In this document: positions 11,014-22,486 of the stretch, piece by piece
Position numbering within the stretch: the first letter of the stretch is position 1
Layout of the letters: each line of letters opens with the position of its first letter
Origin: Lachnospiraceae bacterium
Lineage (GTDB): Bacteria > Bacillota > Clostridia > Lachnospirales > Lachnospiraceae
NCBI GenBank assembly: GCA_021772075.1
Contig: JAETNQ010000037.1
Location: forward strand, 1-34,198
Direction of reading: 5' to 3'
Length of the DNA stretch: 34,198 nt
Position numbers and translations under genes: made by a program
The notes under the pieces: generated by a model
Databases searched by the model: none
What the model saw: the letters and a program-made list of their open reading frames with translations, nothing else
Told to the model about the DNA's origin: nothing

Positions 11014-11514
11014 ATGAATTTGATTGTGGCGGTGGACAGCCATTGGGGGATCGGAAATAAGGGTGAGCTGCTGGTAAGGATACCGAACGACCACAAATTT
11101 TTCCGGGAGGAAACGACAGGAAAAGTAGTGGTACTCGGCCGCAAAACGCTGGAGACATTCCCCCAGGGGCTGCCTTTGAAAAACAGGACGAATATTATCC
11201 TTTCATCCAATCAGGATTACCGGGTAAAAGATGCCGTCGTGGTACACAGCCTGGAGGAACTGCTGGAGGAACTGAAAAAGTATAAGAGCGGGGATATTTA
11301 TATCGTGGGCGGCGACAGCGTGTACCGGCAGCTTCTGCCTTACTGCGACGTGGCCCATGTGACGAAGATCGACCATCGGTACGAGGCAGATGCCTTTTTC
11401 CCTGATCTGGACGGGATGGAAGAATGGGAGATTACAGCGGACAGCGAGGAACAGACGTATTTTGATATCGCTTACCAGTTTGTGAAGTATGAGAGAGTGA
11501 AAAAAAGCGAATGA
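11014..11514 (+). CDS. folA: Dihydrofolate reductase
   Basis: Reduces dihydrofolate to tetrahydrofolate with NADPH, closing the cycle with thyA just upstream. The 166-residue length is typical. It shows the N-terminal strand LIVAVD, the HWGIGNKGE loop with the conserved Trp, the acidic Asp26 in IPNDHKFF that protonates the pterin, VVLGRKTLETFP for NADPH, and IYIVGGDSVYRQLLP for the dinucleotide fold. A strong GAGGAGG site precedes the ATG. A factor-independent terminator begins just 5 bases after the stop, so this is the last gene of the transcript. Confidence 0.96.
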   Translation: MNLIVAVDSHWGIGNKGELLVRIPNDHKFFREETTGKVVVLGRKTLETFPQGLPLKNRTNIILSSNQDYRVKDAVVVHSLEELLEELKKYKSGDIYIVGGDSVYRQLLPYCDVAHVTKIDHRYEADAFFPDLDGMEEWEITADSEEQTYFDIAYQFVKYERVKKSE

Positions 11515-11519
11515 GAGGA

Positions 11520-11554
11520 AGCGCCAGGCGGGAAAAACGTCTGGCGCTTTTTTT
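11520..11554 (+). terminator. Rho-independent terminator of thyA-folA
   Basis: An 11-bp stem (11520-11530 with 11538-11548, arms AGCGCCAGGCG and CGTCTGGCGCT with one G-T pair) encloses a 7-base loop and runs into seven T residues (11548-11554). It cleanly separates the folate genes from the accessory block to the right. Confidence 0.93.
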
Positions 11555-11606: not shown

Positions 11607-14348
11607 ATGGCGAAGGATGTAAAAGAGATATTAAAAATACTGTTTCCGGAGTACCAAATAAAGGCTTGCATAGATGAACGGGGATTTATCGCAAAGAAAC
11701 AGGAACAAAAAGCAGCAGAGGTTCCCGCGCCGGCATCGAAGCCGGCTGGGAAAGCGAATCCGTCTGTAAAAAATGATATGGAAAGGGCGATTAAGGCAGA
11801 GGATGCCTTTGAACATTTACCGGCAGAGCTAAAAAAGCATTGGATTGGATCGGAAAAGGACAGGGAAGCGCTTTGCAAAGCGTTTCAAAGGCCGTATGTC
11901 AAGGGATTTGACCAGAATATACCTAAAAATGCTGTTTTAATCATTGGCACTGAGAGCCGCGGGCGCGTGTATGCAGTGCGCTGCATCAGTGAATTGCTGA
12001 GGCAGAAAAATGTTTTCCAATATGCTGGGACCATAACCATGGATATGCTGGATTATGCATCGGACTCTGCTGACGGATTGTTTCTCAGTGATTTGTATCA
12101 AGCGCTTAATGCCGATACGGAGAGCGTGGTATTTGAGAATATGGAAAAAGCATCGCCGCTGTATTTGGATATTATTTATCAGCTGCTTGTGGAAGGCGCA
12201 TACAGGCTTCCCAGGCGGTATATGGCAAGCAATGGCGGCTTGGTGGAAGCAACGGGAATGTTAACTACAGGACTTATTTCGGAACTCGGGGCGAATGGAA
12301 AATTTTTTGTATTTACTACCTCTATGCCCCAGGCTGACGTGATATCCGTTTTGGGAAATAAAATCATAAAAGAGTTGGGAGATATTATTACGTTGGATCC
12401 CATAGCGGATAACCAAGTAAAAGATCTGACAGATACATTGTGCATGAATCTGGCAGATAAATGCAGAAAAAATCTTCATATAGAAGTGGAGTTTGATGAG
12501 CTTCTGATCGATGCTGCAGGAAAAAAATATAGTATATCTTCCGGAGTCAAAGGCCTGGAAGAGTATTTGGATGATCAGTTGTATGAAACGCTTTCGGAAA
12601 TAAAATTACAGAAAATTTTAAGGGATGGCGAAAGCATAACCATTACATATACACATGAAGATGGATGCTGCGCGGTTCTGAAAAACGGAAAAAGAATAAA
12701 AATGTCGCAGTATTTGAAGAAGTACCATGCGGCAGAGCTGGAAGAAACCAGAAAAGAACTGGACCGGGTCATCGGCCTGGATCGAGTGAAGGAGTATGTT
12801 CTGAATCTTGAAACAAACTATAAGGTGCAGCAGATGCGTGCGGATAAAGGATTAAAAAAATCAGACATTTCGATGCATATGATATTCGCCGGTAATCCGG
12901 GAACCGGCAAAACAACCATTGCCCGAATCGTCGCCAAATATTTAAAGGCAACAGGCATTTTGTCGTCCGGGCATTTATGCGAGGTTACAAGGGCTGATTT
13001 AGTCGGACAATATGTGGGACATACTGCGGTAAAAACAACGGACGTCATAAAAAATGCGGTAGGGGGAGTCCTGTTTATTGATGAAGCTTATGCGCTTTGC
13101 CGGGATAAAAATGATACCTTCGGCCTGGAGGCGGTAGATGCTTTGGTGAAAGGGATGGAAGATTACCGGGATGACCTGGTTGTTATTTTAGCGGGTTATG
13201 AGGATGAAATGCAGGAATTCCTGAAGACAAACCCCGGCCTGAAATCAAGATTTCCGAATGTAGTACATTTTGAAGATTATACGGTGGAGGAGATGTATGA
13301 AATTGCGAAAGTGACTGCGGCATCCAAAGGCTACAGGCTGTCCGGCGACTGTGAGGAGGGGCTGCGCCGCGAATTTGAAAAGCGTCAGGTGAAAGGAAAA
13401 AATGATGGCGGCAACGGCCGCCTGGTAAGAAACCTGATAGAAGCGGCAGTTTTGCGCCAATCGCAAAGAATCGTTAAAAATCCGGAAGATGATATGGAAC
13501 TGTTAGTTGCCGCTGACTTTGGGCTGGACCAGGAAGGCGAGGCGGCAGAATTTGATCTGGAAAAAGAATTATCCAAAGTGGTCGGACTGGAACCGGTAAA
13601 GAGATATATCAGAAGTCTGTATGCGCGGTTAAAACTTCAGGCTGAAAGAAAAAAAGCCGGGTTAAAAACGGACAATACGCAGACGATGCATATGATATTT
13701 GCCGGTAATCCCGGGACTGGAAAGACCATGATGGCGCGAATGGTAGCGGACATCCTCTATCATATGAATGTGATTACCTCAAATAATCTGGTGGAAACCG
13801 ATAGGTCAGGACTGGTGGCCGGCTATGTCGGGCAGACTGCAATGAAAACCCGGCAGATGATAGAAACGGCATTGGGCGGGGTATTATTCATCGATGAAGC
13901 CTATGCCTTGGCACAGGGCGGTGAAAATGATTTTGGCAGGGAGGCTATCGATACGCTGGTTAAGATGATGGATGACAACCGTGACCGGTTAGTGGTGATA
14001 CTTGCGGGGTACAGCGACGATATGGAGAAATTCCTGGATAAAAACGCAGGGCTGCAATCAAGGTTTGCGAATAAGATAGAATTTCCCGATTATTCCACGG
14101 ATGAATTAATGTTGATTGCGGATGGACTGTATGCGGGGCAGGGATATGTTTTGAGCGCAGGAGCGCGGACTGCCTTAAGGGAAGAAATCGAGGCGGCCAG
14201 AACGGATAAACAATTTGGAAACGGCAGATATGTAAGAAATGTATTTGAGAGATCACTAAATAATCAGGCATTGCGGTTGAGCGGTGAAAAGGAGTATACA
14301 ATGGAATCGCTTACTGTTATTACGGAGAGGGATATCAGGGAGGCGTAA
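11607..14348 (+). CDS. Triple AAA+ ATPase: degenerate ClpB-like domain plus two SpoVK/CbbX-type domains
   Basis: A 913-residue cytoplasmic ATPase with three AAA+ modules. Residues about 80-385 resemble a ClpB D2 domain with its small C-terminal lobe (RDGESITITY at the end), but the Walker A position reads GTESRGR (114-120), without the Lys-Thr, and the Walker B position reads VVFENME, so this module is probably inactive. Module 2 has an intact Walker A G429-T437 (GNPGTGKTT) and Walker B with Asp492-Glu493. Module 3 has GNPGTGKT from G700 with Lys706 and Asp763-Glu764. Modules 2 and 3 belong to the SpoVK/CbbX/EccA group of ring-shaped remodellers, with the typical TxxxLVGxYVGxTA segment. The start is supported by GAGGAAATAAGG. 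It leads an operon with two membrane proteins, suggesting that it remodels or assembles something at the membrane. Function unknown. Confidence 0.88.
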   Translation: MAKDVKEILKILFPEYQIKACIDERGFIAKKQEQKAAEVPAPASKPAGKANPSVKNDMERAIKAEDAFEHLPAELKKHWIGSEKDREALCKAFQRPYVKGFDQNIPKNAVLIIGTESRGRVYAVRCISELLRQKNVFQYAGTITMDMLDYASDSADGLFLSDLYQALNADTESVVFENMEKASPLYLDIIYQLLVEGAYRLPRRYMASNGGLVEATGMLTTGLISELGANGKFFVFTTSMPQADVISVLGNKIIKELGDIITLDPIADNQVKDLTDTLCMNLADKCRKNLHIEVEFDELLIDAAGKKYSISSGVKGLEEYLDDQLYETLSEIKLQKILRDGESITITYTHEDGCCAVLKNGKRIKMSQYLKKYHAAELEETRKELDRVIGLDRVKEYVLNLETNYKVQQMRADKGLKKSDISMHMIFAGNPGTGKTTIARIVAKYLKATGILSSGHLCEVTRADLVGQYVGHTAVKTTDVIKNAVGGVLFIDEAYALCRDKNDTFGLEAVDALVKGMEDYRDDLVVILAGYEDEMQEFLKTNPGLKSRFPNVVHFEDYTVEEMYEIAKVTAASKGYRLSGDCEEGLRREFEKRQVKGKNDGGNGRLVRNLIEAAVLRQSQRIVKNPEDDMELLVAADFGLDQEGEAAEFDLEKELSKVVGLEPVKRYIRSLYARLKLQAERKKAGLKTDNTQTMHMIFAGNPGTGKTMMARMVADILYHMNVITSNNLVETDRSGLVAGYVGQTAMKTRQMIETALGGVLFIDEAYALAQGGENDFGREAIDTLVKMMDDNRDRLVVILAGYSDDMEKFLDKNAGLQSRFANKIEFPDYSTDELMLIADGLYAGQGYVLSAGARTALREEIEAARTDKQFGNGRYVRNVFERSLNNQALRLSGEKEYTMESLTVITERDIREA

Positions 14349-14352
14349 ATAT

Positions 14353-14805
14353 ATGAAAAATAAGATATCTAATTTACTGGCAGTCTTATGGTTTTTTGGA
14401 GTATTGGTTGAAACATTGTTCTTTATGGCGATTGTTATTTTGATCATTTTCTTCAGCAATATAGTCGGAACGCTCAAATCAGGCTTTTCCACACCGGCGG
14501 TAGGCTTTTTGTTTTGCTTTTTAGCAGGGCTGGTCTTTGCTGTTACCGGATGGGTGCCGGCATTCAGAAAGTGTTATTACAAGCTTCCATGGCTTTATCC
14601 TCTCAGTATGATGCTGACCATGCATTTATTTATACTATCCATAGCGGAGGCCGTGCTGGCAAAAGGATTTTCTGTGATAAGCACTCCAAGGCATTTAGCA
14701 GCTATATGCATTATGGTTGTTCAACTGATCGTTTGCCGGGCGGCGATGTGCATTTACTTAAAAAAGAATCCGATGGTGCTGCATCGGTATGACAGGATAG
14801 AGTAG
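14353..14805 (+). CDS. Unknown four-helix membrane protein of the AAA+ operon
   Basis: I do not recognise this family. The 150-residue product has four likely membrane helices (about residues 8-37, 46-69, 80-103 and 113-136), short loops and a basic C-terminal tail (KKNPMVLHRYDR) that the positive-inside rule places in the cytoplasm. I chose the ATG at 14353 because GGGAGGCG (14338-14345) precedes it; a longer in-frame version from 14284 would overlap the AAA+ gene and add a charged, non-membrane leader. It begins 4 bases after the AAA+ stop codon, so co-translation is likely, and a physical partnership with the ATPase is a reasonable inference. Confidence 0.75.
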   Translation: MKNKISNLLAVLWFFGVLVETLFFMAIVILIIFFSNIVGTLKSGFSTPAVGFLFCFLAGLVFAVTGWVPAFRKCYYKLPWLYPLSMMLTMHLFILSIAEAVLAKGFSVISTPRHLAAICIMVVQLIVCRAAMCIYLKKNPMVLHRYDRIE

Positions 14806-14816
14806 GGAGGCGGGTT

Positions 14817-15422
14817 ATGGATAAGATGAATGTAAAAACGCAGGAAAAAATGGATAAAAAGAAGGAAGAGATCGTACTGCCCGATTCGTATCAACTATTA
14901 GAAGATGAGAGAATTTCACCGTTTACAAGAAGAATTAAAAAGAGTTCGACGGTTTTAGTGATAGCGGCCTTCATTTCCCTGGCTGTTTGGGCTATGGACA
15001 GTACAAGCCATTCCATTGATACGGGCGCTGAAGCAGAGAAAGCTATAGAAACGCATATGTCTGTTACACTAGCTGCCGGTACAAGGCTGATGGCGAAGGA
15101 TGACCATTATATAGGCGGAGATCTTACCATTACACATGACTTCGAGAAAGAAGAAACGACAATCTGGGTTTGGGATTATGCAGCGGAGGATGGGGACTAT
15201 GTGCAGATTATCGTGGATGGAACGCCTTTAGGAGATCCATTTATGATCAAAAATAAACCGGTATCGTTTGCCGTTCCGTCCACAGGGGAGATTCAGGTTC
15301 TCGGAACGAGGGACGGCGGCGGCGGGATCACTTATGGCGTGTACTATGAACTGAATCAGACGGCATATTTTAATGGAATGAATGAAGGGGGGGATAATTT
15401 GTATACGTTGGTGAGGGAGTGA
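14817..15422 (+). CDS. Membrane-anchored protein with extracellular beta-rich domain (AAA+ operon)
   Basis: A 201-residue protein with a charged cytoplasmic N terminus (residues 1-43), one membrane helix (about 45-60) and an outside domain (80-201) rich in beta strands. The outside part contains short repeated hydrophobic strands, DLTITHDF, TIWVWDYA and VQIIVDG, and a Gly-rich turn, GTRDGGGGITYGVYYE, followed by AYFNGMNEGGDNLYTL. I recall similar GGGGITY-type domains in uncharacterised bacterial proteins but know no function. GGGAGGCGGG (14806-14815) lies 2 bases before the ATG at 14817, and the previous stop codon is 11 bases upstream. With one helix and the outer domain, it could be the sensor or effector face of a complex energised by the triple AAA+ ATPase. 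Confidence 0.72.
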   Translation: MDKMNVKTQEKMDKKKEEIVLPDSYQLLEDERISPFTRRIKKSSTVLVIAAFISLAVWAMDSTSHSIDTGAEAEKAIETHMSVTLAAGTRLMAKDDHYIGGDLTITHDFEKEETTIWVWDYAAEDGDYVQIIVDGTPLGDPFMIKNKPVSFAVPSTGEIQVLGTRDGGGGITYGVYYELNQTAYFNGMNEGGDNLYTLVRE

Positions 15423-15481
15423 TAAAGTAAGGTATTGCTTGAGGGAGAACCATTATATTTATTGAAAAGACGGAGGCTGAT

Positions 15482-17038
15482 ATGGTAACGGGAGCCATTA
15501 AAAATAAAATTGATAAAATATGGACGGATATCTGGGCTGGAGGAATTACCAATCCGCTGACGGTAATCGAACAACTGACGTATTTAATGTTTATTCGGTC
15601 TTTGGATGAAAAGGAACTGGAAAACGAAGAGTTCGAAAATATGACAGGACAAAAAGTGGATAAAATTTTTCCGCAATCAGAAGCGGGGCAGTCCATGCGT
15701 TGGAGCCGGTTTAAAGAAAAGGATTCCCGGGATATTTTTGATATTGTATCTCAAAGAGTTTTTCCGGCCATAAAGAAAATGAAGAATCATCAATTGCCGG
15801 ATTTTGACGAGGAAGGGAAATTAAAAGAAATTCTGGATGATGATATATTTCCTAATAAAGATAAGGGGAAAGAGGTGGAAAAAACTGCCTTTGCAAGATA
15901 TATGGAAGGCGCAGCATTTTTAATCCCAACGCCTCAGGTATTGCAAAAGATAATTACAGGACTGGACGATTTATATGAACATGATATTTCAGATTTGGAT
16001 ATGCAAGGCGATCTGTATGAGTATATGCTAGGAAAACTGGCGATTGCAGGGCAGAATGGCCAATTCAGGACTCCCAGGCATATCCGGGAAATGATGGTGG
16101 AACTATTAGCGCCTACGCCAGATGATGATATTGTAGATCCCGCATGCGGTACCGCCGGATTCTTGGTATCGGCATCGGAATATATCAGAAAAGCATATGA
16201 AGATACCATGACAAGCGAGCAATGGGATCATTTTGTGGGCAATGCATTTACAGGGTTTGATATGGATCATACCATGTTAAGGATTTCCGCGATGAATTTG
16301 ATGCTGCATTCCATTACGAACCCAGAAATCTGTTATAAGGACAGCCTGTCCAAGCAAAATCAAATAAGCAGTAAATATACGATCTGCTTAGCCAATCCTC
16401 CGTTTAAGGGAACGGTCGATGCGGAGAGCATCAACGACGATTTGAAAGCGGTCACAAACACGAAGAAAACAGAACTATTGTTTCTGGCATTGTTTCTTCG
16501 TTTGTTGAAAACCGGCGGAAGATGCGCATGCATTGTTCCGGACGGTGTATTGTTTGGAAGTAGTAATGCCCATAAGTCGATTAGGAAAGAGTTGATAGAA
16601 AATCATAAATTACAAGCAGTGATCTCCATGCCGTCAGGGGTGTTTAAGCCGTATGCGGGAGTATCGACAGCGATTCTTATTTTTACGAAAACGGGAGCTG
16701 GTGGAACGGATCGCGTATGGTTCTATGATATGAAAGCGGATGGATTTACCTTAGACGATAAACGGTCGGAAACGGATGAAAATGATATCCTAGATATTAT
16801 CGCGCGCTTTCATTCTTTGGATAAAGAAGCGGACAGAAAAAGAACGGAACAGAGTTTTTTTGTGCCTAAGGATGAAATTGTGGAAAATGGTTATGATTTG
16901 TCTATTAATAAGTATAAAAAAGTGGAGTATGCGGAGGTGGAGTATCCGCCGACCAATGAGATCTTAGCAGAGATTAAAAAAATCCAAAAAGAAATAACGG
17001 AGGGAATTGGTGAGTTGGAGGCGATGTTGGAGGTATGA
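15482..17038 (+). CDS. hsdM: Type I restriction-modification DNA methyltransferase subunit
   Basis: N6-adenine methyltransferase subunit of a type I restriction-modification complex. The 518-residue protein has the N-terminal HsdM helical domain (about residues 5-130), the SAM-binding motif I DPACGTAGF (219-227) and the catalytic motif IV NPPF (305-308). The C-terminal tail is helical, for contact with HsdS. GGAGG at 15472-15476 gives a 5-base spacing to the ATG. The preceding 59-base gap holds no convincing promoter. hsdS starts 52 bases after the stop. Confidence 0.95.
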   Translation: MVTGAIKNKIDKIWTDIWAGGITNPLTVIEQLTYLMFIRSLDEKELENEEFENMTGQKVDKIFPQSEAGQSMRWSRFKEKDSRDIFDIVSQRVFPAIKKMKNHQLPDFDEEGKLKEILDDDIFPNKDKGKEVEKTAFARYMEGAAFLIPTPQVLQKIITGLDDLYEHDISDLDMQGDLYEYMLGKLAIAGQNGQFRTPRHIREMMVELLAPTPDDDIVDPACGTAGFLVSASEYIRKAYEDTMTSEQWDHFVGNAFTGFDMDHTMLRISAMNLMLHSITNPEICYKDSLSKQNQISSKYTICLANPPFKGTVDAESINDDLKAVTNTKKTELLFLALFLRLLKTGGRCACIVPDGVLFGSSNAHKSIRKELIENHKLQAVISMPSGVFKPYAGVSTAILIFTKTGAGGTDRVWFYDMKADGFTLDDKRSETDENDILDIIARFHSLDKEADRKRTEQSFFVPKDEIVENGYDLSINKYKKVEYAEVEYPPTNEILAEIKKIQKEITEGIGELEAMLEV

Positions 17039-17090
17039 AACAACTGGGCAAGTCAAAATATTCCGTCGGAATGGAGGCAGTAATAGGAGA

Positions 17091-18188
17091 ATGATTTATA
17101 AAAATTTAGAAGATGTTTGCGAAATTCTCGATTCGCGCAGGATACCAATTACTGCCAAAGATCGCAAAGCAGGGGAATATCCTTATTATGGCGCAAATGG
17201 GGTGCAGGACTATGTGGCAGATTATATTTTTGATGATGAACTTGTTTTATTGGCCGAGGATGGAGGAAATTTTGGTTCTGTAGAGCGGCCTATAGCGTAT
17301 CGGGTTTCAGGCAAATGCTGGGTGAATAATCATGCACATGTGTTGAAAGCAAAAAAATCTATTAATGTTGACTACTTATGTTATTCATTGATGTTTTATA
17401 ATACGGATGGAATTGTCAACGGAGCGACACGGCAAAAGCTGACACAGGCAGCTATGCGGCAGATGAAGATTCCTCTTAGGGATATGGATGAGCAGATGAA
17501 GATTGTCCGTAAAATGAATTGTATTTTTGGATTGATAAAAAAGCAAAAGAAAGTATTAGACTTGCTGGATCAAGTTGTAAAATCAAGGTTTGCAGAATTG
17601 TTTGAACAAGGATTTCCAATGACGACTGCGGATATGGTATGCTCTGCTATTGTTGATTGCCCGCATTCAACACCTAAATATGATGGGAGTGATTTAAACT
17701 TTCCAGCTATTAGGACAACCGAAATTAAAAACGGACAAATTGAATGGAGTTCTATGCGGTATGTTAGCCATTCGGAGTATTTGGAACGAACAAAAAGGTT
17801 GATTCCTGAGTCCGGAGATATTGTATATGCCCGTGAAGGCATATATGGTGATTGTGTTATTTTGCCAGAGGGGGAAAAGTTTTGCCTTGGACAGCGAACA
17901 ATGCTTTTTCGACCAAATAGAAAGAAGTGTACATCTTTCTATTTACATCAAGCGTTGCGTTCCGATGCGGTGAAAAGGCAGGCTGATAAAAGCAATGCAG
18001 GTTCAACAGTGCCTCATGTTAATGTAACTGATGCAAAAAAATTTAGCTTTCCATTACCGCCTATGAAACTTCAAATGGAATTTACGTCTTTTATTTTACA
18101 AGTAAATAAATCGAAATTGGCAATGAAAGAAAGTCTGAAAAAATTAGAAATATTAAAAAAATCATTGATGCGACAGTATTTTGGCTAG
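17091..18188 (+). CDS. hsdS: Type I restriction-modification specificity subunit
   Basis: DNA-recognition subunit that directs both methylation and cutting. The 365-residue protein has two target-recognition domains, about residues 1-150 and 180-335. Each is followed by a helical spacer with a Lys-rich repeat: IFGLIKKQKKVLDLLDQVVKS near 145-165 and KKLEILKKSLMRQYFG at the end. The first domain carries the YPYYGANGVQDYV signature of this family. The ATG at 17091 has AGGAG (17085-17089) very close before it and GGAGG at 17073; an in-frame start at 17007 would overlap hsdM and add unrelated residues. The A+T-rich codon use, especially after 17500, differs from hsdM, as expected for a gene whose recognition domains are swapped by recombination. 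Confidence 0.93.
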   Translation: MIYKNLEDVCEILDSRRIPITAKDRKAGEYPYYGANGVQDYVADYIFDDELVLLAEDGGNFGSVERPIAYRVSGKCWVNNHAHVLKAKKSINVDYLCYSLMFYNTDGIVNGATRQKLTQAAMRQMKIPLRDMDEQMKIVRKMNCIFGLIKKQKKVLDLLDQVVKSRFAELFEQGFPMTTADMVCSAIVDCPHSTPKYDGSDLNFPAIRTTEIKNGQIEWSSMRYVSHSEYLERTKRLIPESGDIVYAREGIYGDCVILPEGEKFCLGQRTMLFRPNRKKCTSFYLHQALRSDAVKRQADKSNAGSTVPHVNVTDAKKFSFPLPPMKLQMEFTSFILQVNKSKLAMKESLKKLEILKKSLMRQYFG

Positions 18189-18199
18189 GAGAAGGAAAA

Positions 18200-18673
18200 A
18201 TGGAAAAAATAGTTGTTGATCATGGAAGCTCTCAGATTGTGGAAACGCCAGTGATACGAATAACAAAATATAATAAAGATTTTTACTTCGGTTTTTACTG
18301 TACAGTTATAAAAGAACAGGCAAGGCGTTGGGCTACAAGATTCGGGGGAGAAGGATATATTAACTCTTATGAATATGATCCAAATCAAGAATTGAAAATA
18401 CTTATATTTGAAGAAATGACAGAGGAATGGTTAGATTTTATTGCGGCTTGCCGAGGTGGACAGGCGCATAGCTATGATATTGTAGAAGGGCCAATGGCAG
18501 ATGATACGATTTATAATTATGTGCAAGGTTTTATTGATGGAAAATATTCCAGAGAAGCTTTTTGGGAGCTGGCTAAATTTAAGTACCCTACGCACCAAAT
18601 CAGTTTTCATACTGCCAGAGCTTTAACGACATTAAGATTTTTAAAAGGAGTATCAGCGAATGAGAAACAATAA
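18200..18673 (+). CDS. DUF3990-like protein, probable ADP-ribosyltransferase-fold toxin
   Basis: The 157-residue sequence matches my memory of DUF3990: an early DHGSSQIVETP strand, then DFYFGFYCTVIKEQARRWA (family pattern DFGxGFYxTxxxxQAxxWA), SYEYD, EWLDFIAACRGG, YDIVEGPMADDTIY and a C-terminal QISFHTARALTTLRF. This arrangement resembles ADP-ribosyltransferase-fold toxins, where an early His or Arg and a later Glu bind NAD, but the active residues cannot be confirmed by eye. It sits between hsdS and hsdR, 11 bases after hsdS, and its last 14 bases overlap the next small gene. That coupling fits a toxin-antitoxin pair carried inside the restriction operon. An alternative is a regulator or modifier of the restriction complex. 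Confidence 0.68.
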   Translation: MEKIVVDHGSSQIVETPVIRITKYNKDFYFGFYCTVIKEQARRWATRFGGEGYINSYEYDPNQELKILIFEEMTEEWLDFIAACRGGQAHSYDIVEGPMADDTIYNYVQGFIDGKYSREAFWELAKFKYPTHQISFHTARALTTLRFLKGVSANEKQ

Positions 18674-19097
18674 CAATTTGTTTTATGTCTGTAGCTTGAT
18701 CGAATATATAGCAAGAAAAACCCAAAACCGCAGAGATGATATTGTGAACTGCCTTGGAAGCGATCTGCAGCGCATATACGATTATGCCGATGTTTTCCAT
18801 TGCGAACCGATGGAAAAGGTAGCGGATGATTTTATTCAGAGAAACTATATCGCAAACGGAAATTATGATAACCTTGCAGAATGTAAGTATACGATTCCTG
18901 ACTATTGGGATATTGGAGAAGTATTTGCCCGGCTGATAGAGGATTGCTATGAAGAAAGTAATATAATAAGCGGGACGAAAGAGGTATATCAATCATGGTT
19001 GACGGATAAAATTTTGAATTTTAACTCAGATTTATATTATCAGTCCAGAGAATATATAGCGCTTTGTTATAAAGAAGGAGAAATATTATTAGCATAA
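18660..19097 (+). CDS. DUF3791-like helical protein, likely partner of the DUF3990-like gene
   Basis: A 145-residue, mostly helical acidic protein. The first 65 residues (LFYVCSLIEYIARK, then an IYDYADVFHCEPMEKVADDFIQR segment) resemble DUF3791, a small domain I recall as a frequent neighbour of DUF3990. The second half (residues 66-145) is an extension I do not recognise. The ATG at 18660 lies inside the end of the preceding gene, with AAAAGGAG upstream at 18642-18649, so it should be translated together with that gene. Its stop is 23 bases before hsdR. The most likely role is antitoxin or immunity protein; this is inference from the pairing. Confidence 0.55.
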   Translation: MRNNNNLFYVCSLIEYIARKTQNRRDDIVNCLGSDLQRIYDYADVFHCEPMEKVADDFIQRNYIANGNYDNLAECKYTIPDYWDIGEVFARLIEDCYEESNIISGTKEVYQSWLTDKILNFNSDLYYQSREYIALCYKEGEILLA

Positions 19098-19120: not shown

Positions 19121-22100
19121 ATGTCTAATTTCAAGTTTCTTCAAGATAAAAAGGAATACCAATTATTTGCGGCGGCAGCGGTCGAGGCTGAAAGAATTTA
19201 TTATTCGTCTCCTGCGATGTGTGCGGTTGGATGCAGAAAAGCATTGGAGCTTGCTGTAAAGTGGGTTTACTCTGCGGATCATTCGATCAAGATGCCTTAC
19301 AGGGACAATTTACAGTCTCTGATCCATGAGCGGTCCTTCCGTTTTGCGCTCGATCAAAATACATGGGGAAAACTGCCATATATCGTTAAGCTGGGGAATT
19401 TGGCCGTCCATACGGAGAAAAATGTACAGGCGGGCGATGCGCTGGCTGCTATGAGAGGGGTATTTGAGTTTATCAAGTGGATCGATTACTGTTATGGAAC
19501 AGATTATGAAGAAAGAAGGTTTGATGAGGCAATTATTCCGAAGGAAAAGGTTGCCGTGGATATAAAGAAAATAAAAGAACAGGAAAGTTTGCTGGGGGAA
19601 AAGGATGCTGAAATCGAAAAGCTGCGCAGACAGGTGGAAGAGATGTCTGAAAAACTTACGGCGCAGAAGGAAGAACATCAGCAGAGCAGGAGATTTATTG
19701 CCGAGGATATTACGGAATGGGAAACAAGGAAACGCTATATAGACCTCGATCTGAAAGAACTTGGATGGAAGCTGGATGGAGTGGATTCCGATGTGCGGGA
19801 GGAGTATCCCGTCAATGATATGACGGGAGCGTCGGGAAAAAGAGGATATGTGGATTACGTGCTTTTTGGTAAGGACGGACTGCCGCTGGCGTTGATCGAA
19901 GCAAAAAGGACGAGCAATGATCCGAATATTGGAAGGAAACAGGCAATGCTATATGCGGATTGCCTAGAGAGAAAGTTTGGTCGTAGACCGATGATGTTTA
20001 CCAGTAATGGATTTGAAACGTATTTTTGGGATGATGCATCTTATCCGCAGCGCCGTGTAAGCGGCATCTTCAGCAAGGAAGATCTGCAAAAATTGATGAA
20101 CCGGAGAGCTGAGAAAAAGGATTTGTTATCCGTCAGGATTGATGACCGAATTACGGATCGCTATTATCAGAAAGAGGCGATACGGGCAGTATGCGAGAAC
20201 GTGGAGCAGGGATATCGGAAAAATCTTTTAGTCATGGCGACCGGCACGGGAAAGACGAGAACAGCAGCCGCTTTGACGGATGTATTCAGCCGGGCGGGGT
20301 ATGCTACTAATGTTTTGTTCTTGGCAGACAGAACGGCGCTTGTGAAACAGGCGAAAGACGATTTTAAGAATTATCTTCCCCATATGTCACTTTGTAATTT
20401 ATGTGCAGATAAGGACGAAAAAAATGCCAGAATTGTGTTTTCTACTTATCCAACGATATTAAATGCCATTGACGATGTGAAAAATGAAGAAGGGAAGAGG
20501 CTGTTTACGCCGACGCATTTTGATTTAATCCTTATAGACGAAAGCCATAGAAGTATTTTTAAGAAGTATAAAGCGATTTTTGAGTATTTTGATGCCATAT
20601 TGGTAGGGCTGACAGCGACGCCGAAAACGGATGTGGACAGGAATACCTATGATTTCTTTGAAATGGAAACGGGAGTGCCTACCTATGTTTATGATTATGA
20701 AACGGCGGTGTATTCCGACCACGTACTGGTACCTTATTATACATATATTGTGAAGACAGAATTTTTAAATGACGGTATTACATATGAAAAATTGTCGGAG
20801 GCGGATAAAGAAAGATATGAAGAAGATTTTGCAGAGGATGAGAATATACCAGAATTTATACCTTCGGCAGCTTTAAATAAATTTGTATTCAATGAACTGA
20901 CCGTGGATAAAGTTTTGCAGGATCTAATGGAGAGAGGAATTAAAGTTGCGGGCGGAGACAGACTGGGTAAGACGATCATATTTGCCCAGAATAAAAAGCA
21001 TGCAGAATTTATTGTGGAAAGATTTAACAAGTTGTATCCAAGGTATAAAGGAATGTTTGCGCAAAGGATTATCTGTGACGATGCTTATGCGCAGACGGTG
21101 ATCGACGACTTTAAGAAACCGAATGCGGAGCCTCACATTGCGGTATCTGTGGATATGATGGATACGGGTATCGATGTGCCGGAATGCGTGAATCTTGTTT
21201 TCTTTAAAAAAGTGCGTTCTAAGACAAAGTTCTGGCAGATGATCGGCCGGGGTACGAGGCTGGCGGAGAATCTAGATTGCATTGACCGGATAGACGGAGA
21301 GTATGCTGGCAAAAGAAGGTTTTTGATCTTTGATTATTGCAATAATTTTGAATTTTTTGGTTCGAAGACCAATGATTATGAAGGAACTGATACAAAGACA
21401 TTGTCGGAAAATATATTCGGAAAAAGAATACGCCTGATAGCAGCTTTGCAGAAGAGCATTTTCGGAGGAGAGGAATATCGGAATTGGAGACAAAACATGG
21501 CAGACACATGCCATGATCAGATTATGGCTTTGAATGATGACTTGATATCGGTGAGGTTAAAGAGGCAGTATGTAGAAAAATTCAGGAACATGGAAACTTT
21601 TCAGAATTTCGGTGAAGGCGATAAAAGGGAGTTGATCAAGGAGATCGCCCCTCTCGTTTCCATGGATGATACGGATGAGGCGGCAAAACGGTTCGATAAT
21701 TTTATGTATGGGATGATATTGTCAAATATAGAAGGGATGGCATCTTTTCAACGCGCGAAAAGACAGCTGCGCCATATTGCAAGTACTTTGGAGGAAAAAG
21801 CGGGCATCCCACAGGTCAAAGAAAAAATGAAACGGATCAAGGAAATCAATACGGACGAATTCTGGGCGGAAAACAGGATTTTGCTGTTCGAAGAGGTCAG
21901 GAAAGAATTGCGGGGATTGATGAAATTCCTAGCCGATGAAAAGAAATCGGTGGTTACAAAGCTGGCAGATCCTGTAATAGAAGATAAGGAAGGTGTTTCA
22001 TTAGATTCGGCCTTTGATTTTGAGGATTATCGCAAGAAAGTAAATCGTTATGTGGAGGAGCATAAAGACTCTTTGGCAATATACAAACTTATGCATAATA

Positions 22101-22486
22101 ACCGCCTGTCGGAAGGGGACTACAGGGAGCTGGAAAGAGTGCTGACGGAAGAGCTGGGCAGCAAGGAAGATTATCGGCGTGAATTCGGCGATATTCCCTT
22201 TGGGCTGTTGGTCAGAAAAATTGCGAAGCTGGATCATGATGCAGCAATGGATGCATTTTCGGCGTTTATCAATGACGCATCCCTGAATCAGAGGCAGATA
22301 CAGTTTATTTGCAAGATCATCAACCATATAGAACAAAATGGTTATATGGAAAATATTATGGATTTGCAAAGGCCGCCGTTTGATAAGCCGGTGCCATTTA
22401 CAAAAATGTTCGATGCAAAAATGAGAAATTTATTAATGCAGGCAATTAACGGAATTAAGGAGAATGCAGTGAATATTATTGCATAA
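19121..22486 (+). CDS. hsdR: Type I restriction endonuclease subunit with N-terminal DUF4145 domain
   Basis: The motor and nuclease subunit of the type I system, 1121 residues. The order is a DUF4145-like helical domain (about 10-125), a coiled coil (about 145-195), the HsdR nuclease domain with PD-(D/E)xK residues Asp245 and Glu260-x-Lys262, and two helicase lobes. The helicase shows Walker A ATGTGKT (373-379), box II DESH (473-476), TATP as motif III and QMIGRGTR as motif VI. The C-terminal region after about 750 resembles the EcoEI-type R subunit tail. All key residues are present. The DUF4145-plus-coiled-coil start makes it a fusion beyond the minimal HsdR. It follows the two small ART-type genes by 23 bases, so the operon order is M-S-x-y-R. 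Confidence 0.92.
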   Translation: MSNFKFLQDKKEYQLFAAAAVEAERIYYSSPAMCAVGCRKALELAVKWVYSADHSIKMPYRDNLQSLIHERSFRFALDQNTWGKLPYIVKLGNLAVHTEKNVQAGDALAAMRGVFEFIKWIDYCYGTDYEERRFDEAIIPKEKVAVDIKKIKEQESLLGEKDAEIEKLRRQVEEMSEKLTAQKEEHQQSRRFIAEDITEWETRKRYIDLDLKELGWKLDGVDSDVREEYPVNDMTGASGKRGYVDYVLFGKDGLPLALIEAKRTSNDPNIGRKQAMLYADCLERKFGRRPMMFTSNGFETYFWDDASYPQRRVSGIFSKEDLQKLMNRRAEKKDLLSVRIDDRITDRYYQKEAIRAVCENVEQGYRKNLLVMATGTGKTRTAAALTDVFSRAGYATNVLFLADRTALVKQAKDDFKNYLPHMSLCNLCADKDEKNARIVFSTYPTILNAIDDVKNEEGKRLFTPTHFDLILIDESHRSIFKKYKAIFEYFDAILVGLTATPKTDVDRNTYDFFEMETGVPTYVYDYETAVYSDHVLVPYYTYIVKTEFLNDGITYEKLSEADKERYEEDFAEDENIPEFIPSAALNKFVFNELTVDKVLQDLMERGIKVAGGDRLGKTIIFAQNKKHAEFIVERFNKLYPRYKGMFAQRIICDDAYAQTVIDDFKKPNAEPHIAVSVDMMDTGIDVPECVNLVFFKKVRSKTKFWQMIGRGTRLAENLDCIDRIDGEYAGKRRFLIFDYCNNFEFFGSKTNDYEGTDTKTLSENIFGKRIRLIAALQKSIFGGEEYRNWRQNMADTCHDQIMALNDDLISVRLKRQYVEKFRNMETFQNFGEGDKRELIKEIAPLVSMDDTDEAAKRFDNFMYGMILSNIEGMASFQRAKRQLRHIASTLEEKAGIPQVKEKMKRIKEINTDEFWAENRILLFEEVRKELRGLMKFLADEKKSVVTKLADPVIEDKEGVSLDSAFDFEDYRKKVNRYVEEHKDSLAIYKLMHNNRLSEGDYRELERVLTEELGSKEDYRREFGDIPFGLLVRKIAKLDHDAAMDAFSAFINDASLNQRQIQFICKIINHIEQNGYMENIMDLQRPPFDKPVPFTKMFDAKMRNLLMQAINGIKENAVNIIA

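Follow-up and report, generated by a model that had tools for sequence, protein, structure and literature searches.

The contig JAETNQ010000037.1 of a Lachnospiraceae bacterium (assembly GCA_021772075.1), analysed here over a stretch of 34,198 nucleotides (the window), contains three adjoining genes on the + strand that encode a triple-AAA+ ATPase (A) and two membrane proteins (B and C). They are subsequently referred to as ABC. The reading that we prefer, and to which we give about an even chance, is that ABC is a horizontally carried three-gene unit encoding a membrane-anchored AAA+ remodelling machine with a dedicated client, controlled by C. The composition of the locus, its linkage, parallel divergence and patchy spread, and the intact ATPase motifs of A are observed; the topology is predicted, and we infer the complex, the stacking of its rings, the docking role of an N-terminal motif of A, the client and the sensing role. 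The clade of the motor is already known, and what is new here is the presence of CbbX-type motors in a new membrane system. The genes, and the parts of A, are arranged as follows.

11607-14348, + strand: gene A, a 913-amino-acid (aa) triple-AAA+ protein (open reading frame (ORF) calls, Pfam, NCBIfam, structure-profile matches, motifs)
11607-11696, + strand: N-terminal LFPEYQI...GFIA motif of A, found only in B/C-linked ATPases (PE.Q[IV] counts)
11802-12722, + strand: degenerate ClpC/ClpB-D2-like AAA+ module of A (profile match to ClpC 3pxi; ClpB_D2-small in relatives)
11946-11966, + strand: Walker A GTESRGR within the Clp-like module
12732-13526, + strand: CbbX/SpoVK-type module 1, the most conserved part (62-83% identity among ABC loci)
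13554-14348, + strand: CbbX/SpoVK-type module 2, with pore loop GYVGQT
14353-14805, + strand: gene B, a 150-aa membrane protein with four predicted helices and no known family (family scans, hydrophobicity, model)
14817-15422, + strand: gene C, 201 aa, with a cytosolic tail, one membrane helix and a conserved beta domain predicted to lie outside

The stop codon of A is separated by 4 bases from the ATG of B (at 14353), and the stop of B by 11 bases from the start of C. Purine-rich, AGGA/GGAGG-like ribosome sites, read from the sequence, are found 5' of all three starts. These ORFs, coordinates, spacings and ribosome sites agree with the initial annotation of this DNA, which had also proposed that the three genes form one system. 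This proposal is now well supported: the genes co-occur, keep a fixed order, are tightly spaced and have diverged in parallel.

A scan of 11.3 million genome contigs with A, which used six exact peptide patterns and is therefore incomplete, gave 53 loci, 20 of which (L045-L064) are of the A-B-C class. One of these, L058, breaks off within A and does not enter the A-B-C counts; B and C lie downstream of A in all of the remaining 19. Among 391 genomes of the window's class C is present in seven, the window's own included, each time next to B and a CbbX module. A separate search of the same genomes with B returned exactly these seven, where independence predicts about 0.13 shared genomes. The C search added four new loci (L099, L100, L102 and L103); L098 and L101 repeat L050 and L049 and are not counted twice. 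In all 24 assessable loci (the 19, these four and the window) A, B and C are found in a fixed order, with A damaged in two of them, being fragmented in L054 and cut within module 1 in L063. The intergenic spacing ranges from -86 to 43 bases, the exception being L052, where A and B are 404 bases apart with an extra small ORF between them.

The matched records come from Selenomonas, Anaerovibrio, Mitsuokella, Butyrivibrio, other Lachnospiraceae, Mogibacterium, Granulicatella, Fibrobacter, Synergistes and Campylobacteraceae, and many of them are metagenome assemblies. The three genes are thus found together in several phyla, that is, beyond chance. A tree of 21 of the 24 loci (those out are L054 and L063, with their damaged A, and L047, a near copy of L046) mixes taxa, with Synergistes and Mogibacterium placed among the Lachnospiraceae and the Lachnospiraceae themselves split. 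Measured on their trees, the distances of module 1, B and C agree with one another (r 0.83, 0.78 and 0.78, reached by 0 of 2000 permutations each), although values of this size also arise from shared ancestry alone. In a sample of the phylum, C was present in three of 398 genomes, namely the window's own, G946 and the far G804. A C search within the family of G946 matched nine of 189 genomes, seven of which repeat known loci. In G1117 (L113) B and CbbX stretches lie beside C, and this would be a 25th locus, with A seen only in part. The ninth, a weak C match in G1034 (E 8.8e-4), was rejected as chance, as its 3.1-kb locus has no B or CbbX module; the neighbouring genes there resemble pilus genes.

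The B/C-linked ATPases share a short motif at the N-terminus. PE.Q[IV] is found at the start of all 23 of them (motif counts over these 23 ATPases leave out L054, L058 and the repeat loci), and before the first CbbX module in none of 37 relatives without B and C, of which five are truncated where their contig ends. In L062 the Clp-like N-module has been lost and the first 34 residues, with PE.Q[IV], are kept. Judged from this pattern in the sequences, the motif is likely to be a docking element of A.

The tandem, PE.Q[IV]-type subfamily has B and C wherever this can be assessed. A second group of ATPases, from 14 loci (L034-L037, L065-L073 and L095), consists of proteins in which this degenerate Clp module is joined to a CbbX module 56-60% identical to module 1. 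These relatives contain only one CbbX module, have no PE.Q[IV] before it, and have no B or C in the DNA examined there, whereas A of the ABC type contains tandem CbbX modules, mostly together with the N-module. The wider ATPase family therefore does not need B and C. The single-CbbX relatives were found in genomes of the family Lachnospiraceae, in Gemmiger and Fournierella, and in other Oscillospiraceae. ATPase homologues without the membrane genes had been named in the initial annotation as evidence that would speak against one system; such homologues do exist, but as this separate single-CbbX class, and in the tandem class both membrane genes are present in 24 of 24 assessable loci. The existence of related ATPases without B and C, and the fact that A as a whole passes the NCBIfam equivalog cut-offs of three members of its clade, would suit an ordinary SpoVK/CbbX paralogue followed by two unrelated membrane genes by chance. 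This explanation is highly improbable, as B and C occur in the 391 genomes only together and beside a CbbX module, and the invariant gene order of the 24 loci is a linkage that already speaks against chance.

Two CbbX/SpoVK-type modules follow the N-terminal module of A. The protein matches the Pfam families AAA (7.4e-42) and AAA_lid_6 (8e-30) in two stretches each, and the structures of CbbX (3syk, E 3.7e-63) and EccA1 (9lur, E 2.3e-57). The three NCBIfam cut-offs, those of SpoVK, EccA and CbbX, are likewise passed in two stretches each, and so the score does not discriminate between them. In both modules Walker A (GNPGTGKT), the pore loop (YVG), Walker B (FIDEAY) and NxGLxSR are intact and the sensor-1 GY is present as VVILAGY, which confirms the earlier description of two intact SpoVK/CbbX-type modules. 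The signatures of the clade are the sensor-1 GY, an Asn that precedes the first Arg finger by 4 residues, and a sensor-2 Arg (PMC10659427). In A, NPGLKSR, NAGLQSR and GNGRxVRN are present, with the Asn placed 6 residues before the Arg by our own count, made without the residue numbering of that paper.

The number of CbbX modules in A varies. There are two in the window and in eight further loci, three in twelve loci, four in L049 (Mogibacterium), where A is 1483 aa long, and part of a module in L063. Walker A and Walker B are kept in all 59 CbbX modules of the 23 ATPases. The pore-loop Tyr is found in 58 of the 59, the other having a Phe, and GY and NxGLxSR are also present in 58, the exception being that of L063, which is cut before these motifs.

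The N-terminal module of A is related to the second AAA+ domain (D2) of the Clp ATPases. A profile of the module from 20 relatives, the window included, matches ClpC (3pxi) with an E-value of 2.2e-20 and aligns across the large and small D2 domains of ClpC/ClpB, which are the homologous parts; ClpB_D2-small is matched by 11 of the 20 members at E 0.1 or better. The N-terminal 375 residues of the window's A alone match no Pfam family at E 0.1, and neither a Clp N-domain nor a tetratricopeptide repeat (TPR) family is found in them or in the relatives. Active Clp D2 domains contain an Asp-Glu pair in Walker B. Whereas the D2 of ClpB/ClpC has an intact Walker A Lys-Thr as well as this pair, the module of the window has GTESRGR as Walker A and FEN as Walker B. 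The degenerate ClpB-like module of the initial annotation, with its Walker A lacking Lys-Thr, is hence confirmed by profile as ClpC/ClpB-D2-like, with one correction: the Walker A Lys is retained in all 18 relatives that have the N-module, and its replacement by Arg is peculiar to the window. The Ser/Thr that follows the Lys is missing in 13 of the 18, and none of them has the Walker B Asp-Glu. As FEN stands in place of Asp-Glu, the Clp-like module probably does not hydrolyse ATP.

The two partner proteins are predicted to have the topology that was first proposed for them. B contains four hydrophobic helices by sequence, in agreement with a model of mean predicted local distance difference test score (pLDDT) 86. 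C contains one hydrophobic helix and a nine-stranded beta domain (mean pLDDT 84), which is predicted to be outside. These assignments come from hydrophobicity and structural models. Many residues of the beta domain, whose consensus is VWDYAAEDGDYVQV ... RDGGGGITYAV, are invariant; in 23 sequences of the ectodomain these include W119, D120, A122, E124, D125, D127, Y128 and V129. Neither B nor C matches a family in Pfam, NCBIfam or PADLOC (the PADLOC-DB 2023 component models of known defence systems, at E 0.1). Against PHROGs two B proteins gave no match and two C proteins gave single matches (E 0.043 and 0.0058). C and its 22 relatives have no match to the family CBM60, the calcium-dependent carbohydrate-binding modules represented by 2xfd and 2xhh, and the profile of C is not significantly similar to CBM60 by hhalign (probability 0.4%, E 0.14, against a shallow CBM60 alignment of 3 sequences).

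According to PMC10659427, known members of the SpoVK/CbbX/EccA clade are dedicated chaperones, two of which (SpoVK and EccA1) are linked to the cell envelope. A shares with them the CbbX-type core with AAA_lid_6, the sensor-1 GY and the intact Walker and pore motifs, and ABC probably also shares the dedication to one client. It differs in that each chain has two to four CbbX modules, in most cases joined to a degenerate Clp-type module, and in having two membrane partners of no known family. SpoVK has one AAA+ module and a short N-terminal domain of three strands and one helix (PMC10659427), whereas A has three AAA+ modules on 913 aa, the first of which is Clp-like. CbbX is a partner of the Rubisco operon and is stimulated by ribulose 1,5-bisphosphate; the 25 window ORFs that were scanned include neither a Rubisco nor an ESX gene. 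In the CoCoNuT loci a SpoVK-family ATPase stands beside a glycine-zipper protein (PMC11090510), and this arrangement differs from ABC. A matches IetA and other PADLOC families over its CbbX modules. The initial annotation knew of no described system of this composition, and none was found in a limited search of the open-licence literature in PMC, within which Figure 3A of PMC10659427, on selected operons of the clade, could already draw ABC.

EccA belongs to the same AAA+ clade as A (its match to 9lur being given above), and ABC might accordingly be part of a secretion or transfer apparatus, acting like EccA in type VII secretion or as a partner of type IV coupling proteins. EccA has TPRs at its N-terminus (PMC10659427) and an ESX locus, unlike A, with its Clp-like N-module and lack of a TPR match. 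Among the 25 of 152 matched Pfam families listed for the neighbours of 22 other ABC loci there is no ESX or type IV secretion system (T4SS) family, in a survey with no search aimed at such genes. A link to transfer is seen in one far relative. The profile of C, used without A, matches the far genome G804 (E 6.8e-8), where L107:5352-10848 encodes in a row a C-like single-helix beta protein, a second single-helix protein with a sub-threshold match to NPCBM (E 7e-4), and a CbbX-type ATPase, one gene from the C-like protein, with three hydrophobic segments before its CbbX module. The cluster includes a TraG/VirD4-type coupling protein. Like ABC, it combines a C-like protein, hydrophobic helices and a CbbX-type ATPase, and as it was found without A it supports a functional tie of CbbX motors with this beta domain and with membrane helices. 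It differs in its one CbbX module fused to its own helices, in the extra single-helix protein and in the conjugation-type coupling protein, and it is a single case, found in one genome and absent in 21 other genomes of the order of G804. Taken together, a role in secretion or transfer is quite unlikely for ABC.

If ABC is, as preferred here, a membrane-anchored remodelling machine, B and C would form its membrane part, with the beta domain of C outside the cytoplasmic membrane. A would be recruited to the inner face of the membrane, probably via the N-terminal PE.Q[IV], and the degenerate Clp-like module could act as an adaptor or scaffold. The CbbX-type modules, two to four in number and presumably arranged as stacked rings, would use ATP to pull or refold one dedicated client, probably a tail of C or of B, or an envelope-enzyme complex held by B and C. 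The outside domain of C may bind or sense something conserved in the envelope and so gate the motor. A wider proposal, which we put forward tentatively and well short of an even chance, is that ABC represents a new class of envelope-spanning AAA+ machines, in which a carbohydrate- or calcium-responsive C controls, via B, up to five rings on one chain (the degenerate Clp-like and two to four CbbX-type) that pull a membrane client from the cytosol; it would spread as a stand-alone cassette and have a T4SS-linked cousin in L107, where the membrane part is fused to the motor. Few members of the SpoVK/CbbX/EccA clade have known clients. The likely partners of a widely dispersed branch are encoded beside A, and client and control are therefore directly testable. 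In ABC, moreover, CbbX motors stand in tandem within a single polypeptide, and ABC adds two membrane protein families that are nameless in the libraries searched, and the conserved, predicted outside domain of C should have a definable ligand.

In the window ABC forms part of a larger insert. The interval between the DHFR and ilvE genes is 11,056 bases long and is taken up by ABC together with a type I restriction system that includes PDC-M10 genes.

11514-11554, + strand: terminator-like hairpin with a T-rich 3' arm, between the DHFR gene and A (RNA fold -27.9 kcal/mol, z -7.2)
15482-17038, + strand: HsdM, type I methyltransferase, in the same insert, 59 bases 3' of C
17007-18188, + strand: HsdS, specificity subunit
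18200-19097, + strand: two candidate phage-defence genes, PDC-M10A and PDC-M10B (the first a DUF3990 gene), between hsdS and hsdR (PADLOC, Pfam)
19121-22486, + strand: HsdR, type I restriction subunit, the final gene of the insert

The hairpin was obtained by RNA folding and is not listed by a separate terminator pattern scan; the 59-base gap between C and hsdM has no stable hairpin by folding (z 0.4) and none in the pattern scan. With a hairpin 5' of A and none between C and hsdM, ABC is probably a separate transcript, which may run on into the restriction genes. The G+C content is 44.7% in ABC, 36-42% in the restriction genes and 49-50% in the flanks.

Within the genus C is found only in the window's own genome, out of 16. 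The same site was located in 12 of the 15 others, being empty in eight (78-311 bases) and occupied by other cargo in four. In the nearest relative, G202 (L154), the DHFR hairpin is directly followed by a stretch matching the 3' end of C at 26 of 30 bases (window counterpart 15396-15425), where 60 single-base shuffles gave at most 22. This scar suggests that the cassette was probably present in the common ancestor of the window and G202 and has been lost in G202. Beyond the scar lie a type III restriction-like fragment (E 9e-6) and a gene with matches to Argonaute-associated models.

These surroundings bring in a further explanation, that ABC is an anti-phage or anti-plasmid defence system, with C or B as the sensor of envelope damage or injection, A as the remodeller of a client and B perhaps as a membrane effector. 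The patchy presence of C in the genus, class and phylum samples and in the family of G946 (one doubtful match included), a spread across phyla that does not follow taxonomy, the insert that ABC has in common with the type I restriction-modification and PDC-M10 genes, and the restriction-like fragment beside the scar in G202 are all consistent with this, as is a BrxL gene upstream of ABC on the same strand in L099. However, the neighbours elsewhere do not point the same way. In a mechanical survey of the nearest three ORFs of at least 100 aa on each side (116 ORFs from the 22 other loci) the Pfam families listed, 25 of 152, were mostly metabolic and signalling ones, and defence was represented, among the 25 of 39 matched PADLOC families listed, by that BrxL and one UvrD-type helicase (L053), one member each. 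B and C lack any match to the defence models, and the strong conservation of the C ectodomain would be unusual for a direct phage sensor. A defence role is thus possible but rather unlikely; a role in shielding the envelope from attack, if real, would make ABC a new kind of defence. The expectation of defence genes nearby, raised in the initial annotation, holds for the window and a few loci, such genes being rare elsewhere, and its overall interpretation is partly supported: one system stands, and the defence context is limited to those few cases.

In the two closest relatives the gene directly upstream of A encodes a DUF4236-like protein (L049:6449-7969 and L099:13393-14868). DUF4236 was matched by two of the 116 neighbours, which were assigned to L049 and L099 by their shared start; in L099 BrxL lies further upstream than this gene.

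Phage and plasmid origins of ABC were considered and rejected. ABC has no blastn match in 50,697 phage records. With tblastn, C matched neither phages (at E up to 1) nor any of 72,556 plasmids (at E up to 0.01). Scans of IMG/VR with A, the C alignment and the C-like protein of L107 found no relative; the phage, plasmid and IMG/VR scans are seeded by short peptide patterns and may overlook relatives. Other CbbX-type ATPases are common on plasmids (274 records), and both CbbX modules of A are spanned by matches to Streptomyces plasmid proteins whose annotation is beta-helix repeat protein. Finally, a phage-type integrase gene and a tRNA-Leu gene are located near the left end of the window, at the contig start (172-1324).

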